In this document: piece by piece, positions 4,806-10,350 of the stretch
Layout: every line of letters starts with the position of its first letter
How positions within the stretch are numbered: the first letter of the stretch is position 1
Source: Candidatus Bathyarchaeum sp.
GTDB taxonomy: Archaea; Thermoproteota; Bathyarchaeia; Bathyarchaeales; Bathyarchaeaceae
Length of the DNA: 39,662 nt
NCBI GenBank assembly: GCA_020344315.1
Contig: CP070820.1
Span: 874,560-914,221, forward strand
Reading direction: 5' to 3'
Position numbers and translations under genes: made by a program
Notes under the pieces: generated by a model
What the model was told of the DNA's origin: nothing
Databases searched by the model: none
What the model saw: the letters and a program-made list of their open reading frames with translations, nothing else

Positions 4806-6158
4806 CTATTGAGTTCCAGCACAGAGGTACTGGTTTTTCTGATTTTCTAGGGGGCAGCCTCCGCCACAGACCTGCAGTTGCGGGCACTCCTTGCATTTTG
4901 CTTCTACATATTCTCTCTTTCTCAGCTGTAATGCAAGCGGGTGGTTCCAGACTTTCTGCCACTCCTCTTTGAGGATGTTGCCAAGACTCTTAAAGTAGCT
5001 TTGGCACGGATAAACATCACCGTTTGGTCCAACACACATGTTAATCATCGCTGCTGTGCATGATTTGACGCCTAAACCTAATTGTACAGGATCAAAACGA
5101 CAGTATTGGGTTGGGGTGTACCAAAGAAATTTTAGCCCTAGCTGATTCGCTTTGTCGTGGACTTTGGGCAGGAGCTCTTTCAGGGTTTCAAGGGGCAAAA
5201 CGAATTCTTTGCTTATCCCGTTTGCCTTTCCCGAGTAGATTAAACTATTACATCCAAAAGCCGCTACTCCAAGCTCTTTCAAGAAGTCTATGGTTTCCAG
5301 AAAATGTTGGGCATTGTATCTACTGAGAGTGGTGTTTGTCGTCGCGTAAATCTGCGTTGGAATCACATTTTTGATTCCAGCCACAGTTTCTCTCCAGCTT
5401 CCTTCTGTCACCGTCATCCGGTCATGAATTTCTGGCTTGTGGGATTCAAGGGTCACTTGGATGAAGTCCAGTCCGGTTTTTTCAAGGGTTTTGACGTAGT
5501 TTTTGTCCTTTAGTTTTCTGCCGTTGGTGATGAGACCTGTGACTAAGCCTTTGTTTTGTCCGTAAAGCAGAAGCTCTGGTAGGTCTTCCCGCAGGGTTGG
5601 TTCGCCTCCAGTGAAGGTTAGTATAAAAACGCCAATTTGGTGAAGCCGGTCGATGATTTCTTTCCATTGTTCTGTGGTGAGTTCAGGGGTCTCATGCGGT
5701 CCGCCGGCGTAGCAGTGGTTACAATTGTTCTGGCATCTGAAGGTAAGCGCCAAGTCCACACGCAGGGGTGCCGAAAGCTCATGGGTGAATGGTTCTACTT
5801 TTTCCAAGTCCAGAAAGGATATGGGACAAATTTCTTCAGTCTGCGCCAAGGTGCTGATGGTGTAGATCAGCCGTTCATAATCGGTTCTCGCTGTATTCTT
5901 GTTCACTCGGTAAATGCTCCTGATCTTTGCAACAGCTTCGTCTGTTGTCATGCCCTGCATAAAATAGAAGGCGTAGGCAGTAGCTGTCTCGTTCAAGTAA
6001 AGAACAGTGTTTGCGTTGATCACTAAAAGTCCTTGACCGTCCGGTTCCACACGAAGCTGAAGAGCCAAACCTGCGAAATCCCCCTTCCCTCGATATGTGT
6101 AACGTCCATGAGGAATCTGGGATGAACGGAACATTTTACGAACAAAACTCATGATCAC
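4806..6158 (-). CDS. Radical SAM/SPASM peptide-modifying enzyme with PqqD-like N-terminal domain
   Basis: This is a likely peptide or protein maturase. Residues about 30-110 (LLVINANTVLYLNETATAYAF, then a helical segment) resemble the PqqD/RRE fold that binds precursor peptides. The radical SAM core begins at 132 with C142-x3-C146-x2-C149 and GGEP at 184-187. The C-terminus shows a full SPASM signature: C367, then G380-x4-C385, C422-x2-C425-x5-C431-x3-C435, and C446. This predicts two auxiliary iron-sulfur clusters. SPASM enzymes typically make thioether or C-C crosslinks or epimerise residues in a peptide. It starts 12 nt after the end of the DUF2207-like gene, whose last 27 residues carry ten cysteines, so that tail is the best candidate substrate. 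The start is ATG at 6158 or ATG two codons later. Confidence 0.9.
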   Translation of the reverse strand: MIMSFVRKMFRSSQIPHGRYTYRGKGDFAGLALQLRVEPDGQGLLVINANTVLYLNETATAYAFYFMQGMTTDEAVAKIRSIYRVNKNTARTDYERLIYTISTLAQTEEICPISFLDLEKVEPFTHELSAPLRVDLALTFRCQNNCNHCYAGGPHETPELTTEQWKEIIDRLHQIGVFILTFTGGEPTLREDLPELLLYGQNKGLVTGLITNGRKLKDKNYVKTLEKTGLDFIQVTLESHKPEIHDRMTVTEGSWRETVAGIKNVIPTQIYATTNTTLSRYNAQHFLETIDFLKELGVAAFGCNSLIYSGKANGISKEFVLPLETLKELLPKVHDKANQLGLKFLWYTPTQYCRFDPVQLGLGVKSCTAAMINMCVGPNGDVYPCQSYFKSLGNILKEEWQKVWNHPLALQLRKREYVEAKCKECPQLQVCGGGCPLENQKNQYLCAGTQ

Positions 6159-6170
6159 ATACCGCCTCCC

Positions 6171-7790
6171 TTATCCTACTCCTCCTCCTGCACAGGCGCA
6201 TGCACAGGAAACGCAGGCGCATACGCACGCGCAAGAAGCACAGGCGCATACGCAACTAGATTTGTGGTGAGCCGGTTTTCTAGAAGATTTTGAGGCTGAC
6301 ATAGGAACTATTGCGTTGGCGAACTTTTCGAGATTAGTAACAACATTGTTTGAGGTGTTCTCCACAGCCGTAGCAATGTTGTTGGCGAAGTCTGCGCCAG
6401 GAATTGTTGGAGGTTTCGCCGCTTTGCTGGGTGTTTCAATGTTTGGCTTATATGTGGGTCTAGGGTGATAGTGGCGATAGCTGAACCAGTACCAAAACCA
6501 GAAAGGACTCGGCTCAAAGGCTAAGTTGCTGAAAGCTGTTTTGGTACGCGATTTAACATTCGGGTCGAGTAAAAGCCACAGTAATTGCTCATCATAGGCT
6601 TTCGATGTTAACTCTGGCGTGCCCGCCTGTTCCACCTGTTTCCAAGCCTTTGCCACGATTTTCCGGTAGTAATCTATGGTGTCGCGTCGGCAGTAACCCC
6701 GCAACTTTTCTTCAACAGTTCGTCTGAGAAACATGATTGTTCGAGCAAGTTTCTCTTCGTCAAGGGTTCCGTCTTTTCTGATGGCGTTGAGGAAGTCGAT
6801 TTCATAGTATCGAAGAGGGTTTTTTCGAGTCCCTGTCTTGTCCTGAAAAGGTTTCATGATTCTAAGTTTTAGCGAGGGGGTCGTGGACTCTGCCCAAACT
6901 GCCCTCTTCTTCAAGAGACTGTATACAATTTCCGTGACTATCTGGGTTGGCTTCAGGTCGAGAAGATACGAAGCCTCCACAGCGGTTAGACCGCGCCTTA
7001 TTCCAAGGGTTTCGACGCCGATTTTAGGCTTCTTATAAGGTTTCTTGCGAATATTGATGAAGACTGCGACAATAACAACAACCGAAATTCCCAATAATAG
7101 AAGCGCAGGCCAATAATTCTGAAAGAAATCAACTATATCTGATTTTGTCTCATAAGCCTGAACATATTCCTTGGGAAAAGAGACTCCAAACTTGGGATTC
7201 TGACCCGGCGCCACATTTTTTCTCTCCCAGTAGATTGATAACCGTCCGTCTTCAGTCAACACATTGTCCCAGTCCACCGATGTTTTCACCATGTCTTCTG
7301 TGACTCCGGACGGTAAAACAATCAGCACTTGAAGGTCGAGTACGCTTGCGTCATACCATGTCGGAGTAAACTCCATACCAAAATTACCCGGGTTTTCGTT
7401 GTCTCCCTTTATCATGCCTGCAACATTTGTGGTAAGGTTAAATCTGGCAGTTTGTCCAGCCGTTAGGGGCGTACGAAATTTGACACGCACCTTATAGTCG
7501 CTTCCAGAACTCGCATCAGAGGCTACTAGAGTGTGACCTTGTTGGTCCATGGCTGTTCCTATTGTGAAGTCGCGTTTGGGTTGACCAACGTTTACGAAGT
7601 TTATGTCAGGACCAGACTTGAGAGTTATACTGATGTCATAAAGTAGGTCGATAGTGCGATCTTGATTTATCCATATTTTTGCCCACTCATGGTCCAGATA
7701 ATATGTCCATTGGGCTGCCACAGTGCCCGCAAACGTCGCCAAGATTAACATGACCGATAATGTGGCGAGCAGGAAACGGGCCCTCACCAT
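6171..7790 (-). CDS. DUF2207-like membrane protein with ten-cysteine C-terminal tail
   Basis: The 539-residue protein begins with a signal peptide (hydrophobic residues 5-24, likely cut near AAA-QW at 26/27). A beta-rich outer domain of about 190 residues follows, then one membrane helix (about 226-247). A cytosolic part comes next, containing a winged-helix-like segment (GIRRGLTAVEASYLLDLKP) and an aromatic patch (PFWFWYWFSYRHYH). This layout matches the DUF2207/YciQ family, whose function is unknown. The last 27 residues (513-539) hold ten cysteines arranged as three, four and three alternating C-x-C units, ending AGGGVG. Other DUF2207 proteins often end in glycine-rich tails. The predicted topology places the tail in the cytosol, where the radical SAM enzyme encoded next could reach it. 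The ATG overlaps the stop of the preceding zinc-ribbon gene (ATGGTGA). Confidence 0.85.
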   Translation of the reverse strand: MVRARFLLATLSVMLILATFAGTVAAQWTYYLDHEWAKIWINQDRTIDLLYDISITLKSGPDINFVNVGQPKRDFTIGTAMDQQGHTLVASDASSGSDYKVRVKFRTPLTAGQTARFNLTTNVAGMIKGDNENPGNFGMEFTPTWYDASVLDLQVLIVLPSGVTEDMVKTSVDWDNVLTEDGRLSIYWERKNVAPGQNPKFGVSFPKEYVQAYETKSDIVDFFQNYWPALLLLGISVVVIVAVFINIRKKPYKKPKIGVETLGIRRGLTAVEASYLLDLKPTQIVTEIVYSLLKKRAVWAESTTPSLKLRIMKPFQDKTGTRKNPLRYYEIDFLNAIRKDGTLDEEKLARTIMFLRRTVEEKLRGYCRRDTIDYYRKIVAKAWKQVEQAGTPELTSKAYDEQLLWLLLDPNVKSRTKTAFSNLAFEPSPFWFWYWFSYRHYHPRPTYKPNIETPSKAAKPPTIPGADFANNIATAVENTSNNVVTNLEKFANAIVPMSASKSSRKPAHHKSSCVCACASCACVCACVSCACACAGGGVG

Positions 7791-8122
7791 TTTGGCTCCT
7801 CAACTATCTCGAATGTCTGTTCACAGTAGGGACATGTTGCATAAGGTACACCGGACACGATTTTGATCCTGTCAGATTTTACCGAAGCTGAACAGTTGGG
7901 ACACTTGAGGGCAACCGCGCTCATTTGCCCTGAAAATTCCACCTTCTGGATGATCGTCTTCGGCTTTCTAGTTATGTAGTAAGCGCTTACGAAGCCGACC
8001 CCAAAAAGCAGAGTGGCAACGATCAGTCGTGAAGGCACATAAGCCGAAGCTAGAGCAAATATGATACCGAAGAAGAAAAGAACCGCAACTAAAATTGCGC
8101 CTAGCGCCGTTTTCAGGTTCAC
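7784..8122 (-). CDS. Two-helix membrane protein with C-terminal zinc ribbon
   Basis: This is a small partner gene of the DUF2207-like and radical SAM genes; no function is known. Two adjacent hydrophobic segments (LGAILVAVLFFFGIIFALASA and LIVATLLFGVGFVSAYYI) precede a cytosolic zinc ribbon, with KCPNC and about 20 residues later TCPYC. The start is uncertain. I favour GTG at 8122, because the upstream in-frame region to ATG 8251 encodes an unconvincing sequence, overlaps the reductase gene, and contains a TTTATACG element at about 8210-8218 that could be this operon's own promoter. The stop overlaps the next start by 7 nt, so translation is coupled. It could present or hold the Cys-tailed protein at the membrane, but this is inference. 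Confidence 0.7.
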   Translation of the reverse strand: MNLKTALGAILVAVLFFFGIIFALASAYVPSRLIVATLLFGVGFVSAYYITRKPKTIIQKVEFSGQMSAVALKCPNCSASVKSDRIKIVSGVPYATCPYCEQTFEIVEEPKW

Positions 8123-8238: not shown

Positions 8239-10350
8239 TTAGAATGGGCATACGCTTGCTGGGCAGCCACCTGCATATTCGGAGTCTGCACTTACATGTT
8301 TTTCAGTAGCCATCTCCTTGGTTAAAAGCGGACCCACATACAGAACCTGCTCCTTCTTGCTTCCATACCGATAAACCGTTACCCCTTTGCACTTCAACTT
8401 GTAAGCCAGCAGATACACCCTTCTAACGTCTTCCACGGTCGCATCGGGCGACAGATTCACCGTCTTCGACACAGCATTGTCAACGTATTTCTGGAAAGCC
8501 GCCTGCATTCTCACATGCCACTCCGGTTCAATATCCAAGGCTGTTACGAAAATTCTCCACACATCTTCCGGAATCTCCCCATTATTCTGTATGGAACCTG
8601 TCTTAGCGATCTCCAGCATCAAGTCTCTGCTGTAAAAGCTCCTCTCCTTTGCTAGTTTTTCGAATGTGGGCTGTATCTCCAGCAACCTTGTGCCCTCCAT
8701 AACATTTCGAACAAAAGCCACAGCAAAGATCGGCTCGATTCCCCCCGAGCAACCTGCAATTATGCTTATGGTTCCCGTGGGCGCAACTGTGGTAACCGTA
8801 GAGTTGCGAATCGTCTTGTAGCCCCTCTTCTCCCAGAGACTACCCTTAAAATTGAAAAAAGCTCCTCTCTCCTCCCCTATCTCAACAGATTTCCTTGTAG
8901 CCTCTTCACTGACGAATTTCATCACTTTTTCTGCCATGGCTAAGGCTTCTTCCGAATCATAGAGTATGCCCAAGAGGATGAGCATATCTGCGAAACCCAT
9001 AACTCCCAAACCGATTTTCCGGTTAGCTCGAGTGAGTTCGCCGATTTCCTGCACAGGATACTTGTTCACGTCGATCGCGTTGTCTAAGAAGTGGACAGCG
9101 GTTCTGGTGACTCTTCTCAGTTTCTCCCAGTCCAATTCTTTATCCTTAACCATCTTAGCCAAGTTGATGGAGCCCAAATTACATGATTCAAAAGGTAGCA
9201 ATGGCTGTTCTCCACAGGGATTGGTGCTCCGAATCTCTCCCAACTGCGGAGTTGGATTATGCCGATTTATTTCATCAATGAACACAAGGCCAGGGTCTCC
9301 TGTTCTCCAGGCGTTGGCAACTATCAAATCAAAAATGTGGCGAGCCCGTAGCTTCGCTTCAGTCTTTCCGCTTCTCGGATTCGTCAGGGCAGCTTCCCTA
9401 TCTTTTTCCACAGCCTCCATAAACTTGTCCGTAACCGCCACTGAAATGTTGAAGTTAGTCAGAATTCCCTCTCTGGACTTTGCTTCAATGAACTTTAAGA
9501 TGTCGGGATGGGTCACGTCCAATATTGCCATGTTGGCTCCCCGTCTTCGTCCTCCTTGTTTAATCACGTTGGTGGCAGCGTCATAGATTGTCATGAAGGA
9601 GACTGGTCCAGAGGCTACTTCCTTGGTGGAGCCTACTATATCTCCTGCAGGCCTCAACTTCGAGAACGAGAAGCCTGTTCCCCCGCCGGACTGATGGATC
9701 AACGCCATATGCTTCAATGTGGTGAATATCCCATCTATCGAATCCTCCACTGGCAGGACGAAACAGGCGGAGAGCTGACCAAGTCTGGTGCCGGCGTTCA
9801 TAAGAGTCGGAGAGTTCGGTAAAAACTCCCGGTTCGCCATAACCTGATAAAACTCTTCCCCAGTCCCTTCTACATCAGCTTTCTTGTCATAGAGAAGGTC
9901 AGCCTTAGCCACTGCTCTGGCAACTCTGCGAAACATCTCACTGGGAGTCTCGACAACTTTGCCCTCATAATCTTTCATGAGATACCTGTTTTTCAGCACT
10001 TTTATGGCGTTGACTCCTAGCTTTAAATCGTCAACAACACCGAAGAACTGTTTGAACTCTCTAATTTCTGCCCGCTTCTGACGGTACAAAATATATGCCT
10101 TAGCCACATCAGCGTAGCCATCTCTGATGAGAACCTCCTCAACGATATCCTGAACGTTCTCGACACTGGGAATTTTTTTTTCGAAGCGTTCGTTGACGAG
10201 TTTCACAACATCTTCGGAAAGCCTCTTTGCAATGATTTCATCTCCCCTCTCGACAGCCTTCAACGCCTTAAGAATGGCGTTAGTTATCTTGGTTTCATCG
10301 AATCTAACTATACGTCCATCTCTTTTTGTGATCTTAGAAACTCTAACCAA
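8239..10350 (-). CDS. nrdJ: Adenosylcobalamin-dependent ribonucleotide reductase (class II)
   Basis: This enzyme reduces ribonucleotides to deoxyribonucleotides using a B12-derived radical, in the cytosol. Residues 1-95 form an ATP-cone allosteric domain (KITKRDGRIVRFDETKI). The barrel carries C196 (SACFVLP), the thiyl-radical cysteine C379 within NPCGE with E381, and C390 (ESCNLGSIN). The phosphate-binding APTGTISIIAGCSGG lies further on. The last residues hold a C696-x4-C701 pair, as expected for re-reduction by thioredoxin. The 703-residue length fits the class. The start is TTG at 10350 with a GGGGGG run 6 nt upstream; no ATG or GTG is nearby. No separate small subunit is present, which agrees with class II. 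A 13-bp palindrome lies just upstream. Confidence 0.95.
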   Translation of the reverse strand: MVRVSKITKRDGRIVRFDETKITNAILKALKAVERGDEIIAKRLSEDVVKLVNERFEKKIPSVENVQDIVEEVLIRDGYADVAKAYILYRQKRAEIREFKQFFGVVDDLKLGVNAIKVLKNRYLMKDYEGKVVETPSEMFRRVARAVAKADLLYDKKADVEGTGEEFYQVMANREFLPNSPTLMNAGTRLGQLSACFVLPVEDSIDGIFTTLKHMALIHQSGGGTGFSFSKLRPAGDIVGSTKEVASGPVSFMTIYDAATNVIKQGGRRRGANMAILDVTHPDILKFIEAKSREGILTNFNISVAVTDKFMEAVEKDREAALTNPRSGKTEAKLRARHIFDLIVANAWRTGDPGLVFIDEINRHNPTPQLGEIRSTNPCGEQPLLPFESCNLGSINLAKMVKDKELDWEKLRRVTRTAVHFLDNAIDVNKYPVQEIGELTRANRKIGLGVMGFADMLILLGILYDSEEALAMAEKVMKFVSEEATRKSVEIGEERGAFFNFKGSLWEKRGYKTIRNSTVTTVAPTGTISIIAGCSGGIEPIFAVAFVRNVMEGTRLLEIQPTFEKLAKERSFYSRDLMLEIAKTGSIQNNGEIPEDVWRIFVTALDIEPEWHVRMQAAFQKYVDNAVSKTVNLSPDATVEDVRRVYLLAYKLKCKGVTVYRYGSKKEQVLYVGPLLTKEMATEKHVSADSEYAGGCPASVCPF

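Follow-up and report, generated by a model that had tools for sequence, protein, structure and literature searches.

A radical SAM/SPASM enzyme encoded with a cysteine-tailed membrane protein in archaea: a candidate maturase and its candidate substrate

Radical SAM enzymes that carry an RRE domain are usually tied to small peptides, which are then cut out and exported. What, then, would such an enzyme act on when it is encoded beside a large membrane protein that ends in an array of cysteines? This question is raised by a locus in the window (i.e., the whole stretch of 39,662 nucleotides analysed here), which comes from an archaeal genome in a single contig of 1.56 Mb. We consider it fairly probable that the enzyme is a RiPP-type maturase, which acts on the cytosolic C-terminal tail of its neighbour instead of on a free peptide, most likely by forming thioether cross-links.

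The operon and its enzyme

A sequence-only reading of this DNA had placed three minus-strand genes at window positions 4806-8122, and all three were found there (Table 1). They form a compact operon, which encodes a zinc-ribbon membrane protein, a DUF2207-like membrane protein and a radical SAM enzyme. The ATG of the DUF2207-like gene overlaps the stop of the zinc-ribbon gene by seven bases (ATGGTGA), and the gap between the DUF2207-like gene and the enzyme gene is 18 bases to the likely ATG of the latter, or 12 bases to a GTG. The start of the enzyme gene is the one point that was amended, the GTG at 6158 (450 aa) being replaced by the likelier ATG at 6152 (448 aa). The nearest named relatives of the enzyme are Bathyarchaeota MAGs with 73-86% identity, in a contig scan whose patterns reach close relatives only; on this basis the host probably belongs to Bathyarchaeia. 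The gene directly upstream (window 8239-10350) resembles, by eye, an adenosylcobalamin-type ribonucleotide reductase; in the short loci checked it adjoins the operon only in genomes G000 and G001, and it is therefore probably unrelated to the operon.

Table 1. Features of the operon, in window coordinates
Feature	Residues	Position	Strand	Basis
Zinc-ribbon membrane protein, 112 aa, GTG start		7784..8122	minus	
Zinc-ribbon Cys ligands	C74-C100	7823..7903	minus	invariant columns
DUF2207-like membrane protein, 539 aa		6171..7790	minus	
Beta ectodomain	28-210, or more narrowly 29-206	7161-7709		AF2 model
Single TM helix	218-246	7053..7139	minus	AF2 helix and hydropathy peak
Conserved amphipathic helix	463-495	6306..6404	minus	AF2 (long helix at 466-494) and conservation 0.77
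Variable spacer	496-512	6255..6305	minus	majority frequency 0.51
Ten-Cys tail CVCACASCACVCACVSCACACAGGGVG, 3-4-3 Cys arrangement, candidate core substrate	513-539	6174..6254	minus	
Radical SAM/SPASM enzyme with N-terminal RRE, 448 aa		4806..6152	minus	
RRE (PqqD-like) domain	about 13-104	5841..6116	minus	PF05402 in relatives and AF2
Radical SAM CX3CX2C cluster motif	C140-C147	5712..5735	minus	invariant in 39/39 sequences
SPASM domain, seven-Cys	C365-X12-G-X4-C383...C420-X2-C423-X5-C429-X3-C433...C444	4821..5060	minus	

The zinc-ribbon protein has a hydrophobic N-terminal region that fits two TM segments by hydropathy, and then a CxxC...CxxC ribbon; at its C terminus stands an invariant PxW (consensus EEPKW). 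Among 32 relatives, C74, C77, C97, C100, P110 and W112 are invariant. Its gene is kept in the rearranged loci L154 and L157, and this conserved linkage backs the earlier view of the protein as part of the system.

In the window enzyme, both Radical_SAM (PF04055, 1e-23) and SPASM lie above the Pfam cut-offs. The seven-Cys motif by which SPASM domains are defined, CX9-15GX4C-CX2CX5CX3C-C (PMC6231123), is present in full, as the claim of a complete SPASM C-terminus had required; of its cysteines, the first six never vary among 39 sequences, and 9 of these sequences lack the seventh. The PqqD-like N-terminal domain holds up as well: of 34 relatives, 25 match PF05402, with a best E of 3.7e-5 (the window protein taken alone is below the Pfam cut-off), and in the AF2 model of the enzyme (pTM 0.83) the RRE region, at residues 16-104, has the expected order of three strands then three helices, with pLDDT mostly 83-92. 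The top PDB fold matches of this model in Foldseek are the RiPP maturases SkfB, SuiB, CteB and PqqE; further structural matches include two other SPASM enzymes, the epimerase EpeE and TigE, as well as non-peptide radical SAM enzymes. In the sequence-profile comparison, SkfB, PqqE and SuiB lead.

An alternative is that the enzyme takes part in the synthesis of heme or of a small molecule, its linkage to the tail being non-catalytic. The best NCBIfam match is NirJ2, then the heme b synthase AhbD, and the enzyme persists without the tail in two genomes (G285 and G420, described below). However, the NirJ2 score is 147.9 bits against a cut-off of 500, so far below the equivalog cut-off that a NirJ/AhbD identity was rejected, and none of the NCBIfam matches listed for the enzyme reaches its cut-off. 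It also carries an RRE domain and is constantly linked to the tail, and a heme or small-molecule role is highly improbable. The identity of a prokaryotic viperin (pVip), with a function in defence, was rejected too: the match covers the radical SAM core only, and the enzyme has the RRE and SPASM domains that viperin-type radical SAM enzymes lack.

The membrane protein and its tail

The 539-aa protein comprises, in order, a signal-type N terminus, a beta ectodomain, one TM helix, cytosolic helical domains, a conserved helix, a variable spacer and the Cys tail. The positive stretch RKKPYKKPK directly follows the TM helix; by the positive-inside rule, the C-terminal half and the tail should therefore be cytosolic, on the same side as the enzyme. 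The tail is hydrophobic (Kyte-Doolittle up to about 2.2), enough for it to touch the membrane or insert into it; its topology would then be a different one. In Foldseek, the model with the predicted beta ectodomain matches ribophorin I and M1 aminopeptidases, a match that gave no functional lead.

The label "DUF2207-like" survives only in the sense of remote homology. The window protein has no Pfam match to DUF2207 (PF09972), and among its relatives there are sub-threshold matches in 5 of 33 (best E 7e-4), the best scoring 23.4 bits, below the gathering cut-off of 24.4. A DUF2207 search of whole genomes (best E 5e-5) gave two genome matches, both of which are genes of this same Cys-tailed protein. 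On these profile scores, the protein is best regarded as a remote DUF2207 relative and not as a member by cut-off.

The ten cysteines reported for the last 27 residues were confirmed. All intact relatives end C-x-C-x-C-xx-C-x-C-x-C-x-C-xx-C-x-C-x-C-A, then in a Gly-containing end, and variation is confined to a few intervening residues (V/A at position 2, A/H/V at 6, A/S/N/H at 7, A/V/H at 11 and V/A at 15). The tail is the best-conserved part of the protein, with a majority frequency of 0.96, compared with 0.58 in the ectodomain, 0.30 in the TM helix, 0.71-0.72 in the cytosolic domains, 0.77 in the conserved helix and 0.51 in the spacer. Pairwise comparison of tail codons gave 7929 synonymous and 811 nonsynonymous differences (about 10 to 1), which implies that the protein sequence of the tail is under selection; its invariant Ser is encoded by TCN as well as AGY codons. 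Such heavy synonymous variation at an invariant amino-acid sequence rules out chance or a DNA repeat as the origin of the tail. The tail is modelled by AF2 with low confidence only.

Judged by conservation, the order of helix, variable spacer and invariant core mimics the layout of a RiPP precursor, here fused to a membrane protein, and the helix is a candidate for a leader-like recognition element. Of the features that mark the precursors of sactipeptides and ranthipeptides, a conserved candidate recognition region with a Cys-rich core is found here; a short stand-alone precursor gene is not, the tail being fused to a 539-aa protein.

A cysteine array could also be a site of the metallothionein type, at which thiolates bind Cu(I), Zn or an Fe-S cluster, the enzyme acting elsewhere or only indirectly. 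The CxC and CxxC spacing, the few tails with His for Ala or Ser and the zinc-ribbon protein as a partner would all suit such a site, whereas the constant pairing with an RRE-bearing SPASM enzyme, present or absent as a unit, would be left unexplained, and the core of the tail is without the charged residues that typical metallothioneins have. We regard this explanation as unlikely. The tails with His in Ala/Ser-type positions between the cysteines are those of L096 2670-4454 (G409), L098 7008-8633 (G333) and L099 7023-8642 (G401); these substitutions are suggestive of either metal binding or tolerance by the enzyme.

Linkage of enzyme and tail protein

Among 398 genomes of the phylum, 27 have both the enzyme and the membrane protein, 3 have the enzyme only, 3 have the membrane protein only and 365 have neither (Fisher p 3e-35 for co-occurrence, uncorrected for phylogeny). 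Two of the genomes with the membrane protein only, G022 and G060, have it at contig ends, and the third, G329, has a weak, tail-less distant relative and no enzyme at E <= 1e-60. The enzyme-only genomes are G285, G420 and G346, in the last of which the enzyme is cut by the contig end. Within a set of 61 relatives, the two genes are both present or both absent; the exceptions are again G022 and G060, truncated at contig ends, and G025 and G033, which have fragments of the enzyme. The genus of the window repeats this pattern on a smaller scale: the pair occurs in G000, G001 and G005 and neither gene in five other genomes, a distribution that is patchy but always paired.

Approached from the tail, the result is the same. 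True matches to the 10-Cys codon pattern in the 398 genomes are to this membrane protein only, beside the enzyme where the contig allows, and the other matches (G345, G356, G407) are triplet-repeat DNA. A looser search with a 7-Cys core added only G408 and G321 as true matches, the rest being scattered noise of a kind that a reversed-pattern control gave as well. These two genomes represent distant lineages; their tail, SCACVSCACACACVSCACACASGGAG, has nine cysteines, and their three genes, although shuffled in order and strand, all lie within about 4 kb. The sequence-only reading had proposed a genome search for adjacency of tail and enzyme as its check, and the outcome favoured it, in that every Cys-tailed protein with a complete gene neighbourhood adjoins the enzyme. 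Plasmid and viral-contig searches for the tail found nothing. Functional coupling of the enzyme and the tail protein is strongly supported.

In G032 (L143 5918-7729), the genes for the enzyme and the membrane protein contain stops or frameshifts and the tail codons are intact; this could be joint decay or an assembly error.

Nor did a separate precursor emerge. In the 37 loci examined, only these three gene families are common, other neighbours being lineage-specific, and no conserved Cys-rich small ORF was found near the enzyme, in agreement with what had been reported for the window. Clusters of small ORFs were rejected as precursors, since they seem to be antisense shadows of a single set of neighbours, plus a GIY-YIG-like protein. 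Because an almost invariant ten-Cys tail is encoded beside a peptide-modifying type of enzyme, the tail is probably the substrate of that enzyme. Neither of the two findings by which the sequence-only reading would have been refuted was made: the tail adjoins the enzyme wherever the neighbourhood is complete, and no alternative small precursor is conserved near the enzyme. Its proposal is therefore well supported as a functional link.

What this model leaves unexplained are G285 (95% complete) and G420 (80%), two genomes of one family, which have an intact enzyme nested within the tail-linked clade, with no membrane protein and no CxCxCxxCxC pattern detected in either genome. Possibly, this is due to loss, to a second substrate or role, or to missing assembly. 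The enzyme orthologues are at L155 4279-5631 (G285) and L156 5645-6955 (G420), and each of them has nearby another radical SAM gene and one whose product, by eye, resembles aldehyde ferredoxin oxidoreductase.

The gene content of the loci also bears on the fate of a modified tail, which might be released by cleavage, to yield a peptide or a cofactor in the manner of PQQ or mycofactocin. The PqqD/PqqE-like architecture and the position of the tail at the extreme C terminus are compatible with release, but only the three genes are widely common to the loci, with neither a peptidase nor a transporter gene conserved among them, and a released product seems distinctly improbable.

Proposed mechanism and comparison with known systems

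From the computed features (operon conservation, tail invariance, co-occurrence and domain architecture) we infer the following scheme for a tail retained on its protein. The RRE domain would recognise the region before the tail, for which helix 463-495 is the candidate; the variable spacer would let the tail reach the active site in the cytosol; and the radical SAM/SPASM core would modify the CACACA array, most likely forming several thioether cross-links from Cys sulfur to carbon on the tail's small residues. The outcome would be a rigid, hydrophobic, cross-linked peptide that remains anchored in the membrane, and the zinc-ribbon membrane protein would be a partner subunit.

Thioether formation is, by analogy, the most likely chemistry, because the nearest RRE-bearing structural relatives include thioether formers and all of the cysteines are invariant. 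Two points count against it: Ala is an unusual thioether acceptor, and a CxC array would also suit metal binding. Alternatively, the enzyme might modify residues other than Cys, either by epimerisation of Ala/Val to give alternating L/D residues or by formation of a C-C bond, so that the thiols stay free. This would fit the strict alternation of Cys and Ala and the presence of EpeE and TigE among the structural matches; a further point in its favour is that TvgB, likewise a radical SAM enzyme, forms cyclopropylglycine within a repeat motif (PMC9062424). However, all ten cysteines are invariant while some of the alternating residues vary (A, V, S, N, H), and the closest matches, SkfB and CteB, are thioether formers (PMC6231123); we rate modification of non-Cys residues as slightly less likely even than the metal site.

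The maturase may turn the Cys-Ala tail into a permanently attached, poly-cross-linked device of the membrane protein, in the cytosol or the membrane, a proposal that we find plausible while leaning slightly towards doubt. If true, RiPP chemistry would here make a functional component of a protein that stays in the membrane, rather than a released peptide or cofactor. Confirmation would mean that the chemistry of peptide maturation also reaches resident membrane proteins in archaea, and the enzyme together with an 80-residue fragment would then offer a compact pair for testing a new cross-linking pattern. The pairing of enzyme and tail is found across a large part of one archaeal order and in a few lineages of the phylum that are more distant.

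In the open literature, with few subscription journals included, nothing was found that links DUF2207 to radical SAM enzymes, or that treats radical SAM and RiPP in Bathyarchaeota, nor any arrangement in which a maturase is coupled to a large membrane protein by its tail and accompanied by a zinc-ribbon membrane protein. The parts themselves are of known kinds (an RRE/SPASM maturase and a Cys-rich core), and the arrangement would be the novel element.

The sactipeptide/SCIFF maturases SkfB and CteB likewise combine an RRE, a radical SAM domain and Twitch/SPASM, and act where a recognition region is followed by a Cys-rich core; in contrast, the candidate substrate here is the tail of a 539-aa membrane protein, with ten cysteines alternating with Ala, and the system is archaeal and has no transporter or peptidase. 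PqqE/PqqD of PQQ synthesis share the PqqD-like RRE and the SPASM radical SAM enzyme, whereas here the RRE is fused to the enzyme, there is no PqqA-like peptide and the tail is Cys-rich. Systems with repeated motifs (His-Xaa-Ser, Asp-Cys and TVGG repeats) also pair a radical SAM enzyme with a short repeated substrate motif (PMC9062424); the motif here is Cys-Ala, in 3-4-3 spacing, and is carried on a membrane protein. Finally, DUF2207 (PF09972) proteins have in common with the protein described here a remote similarity in the N-terminal domain and the membrane topology, but the latter falls below the cut-off, ends in a Cys tail and has a radical SAM partner that looks obligate.
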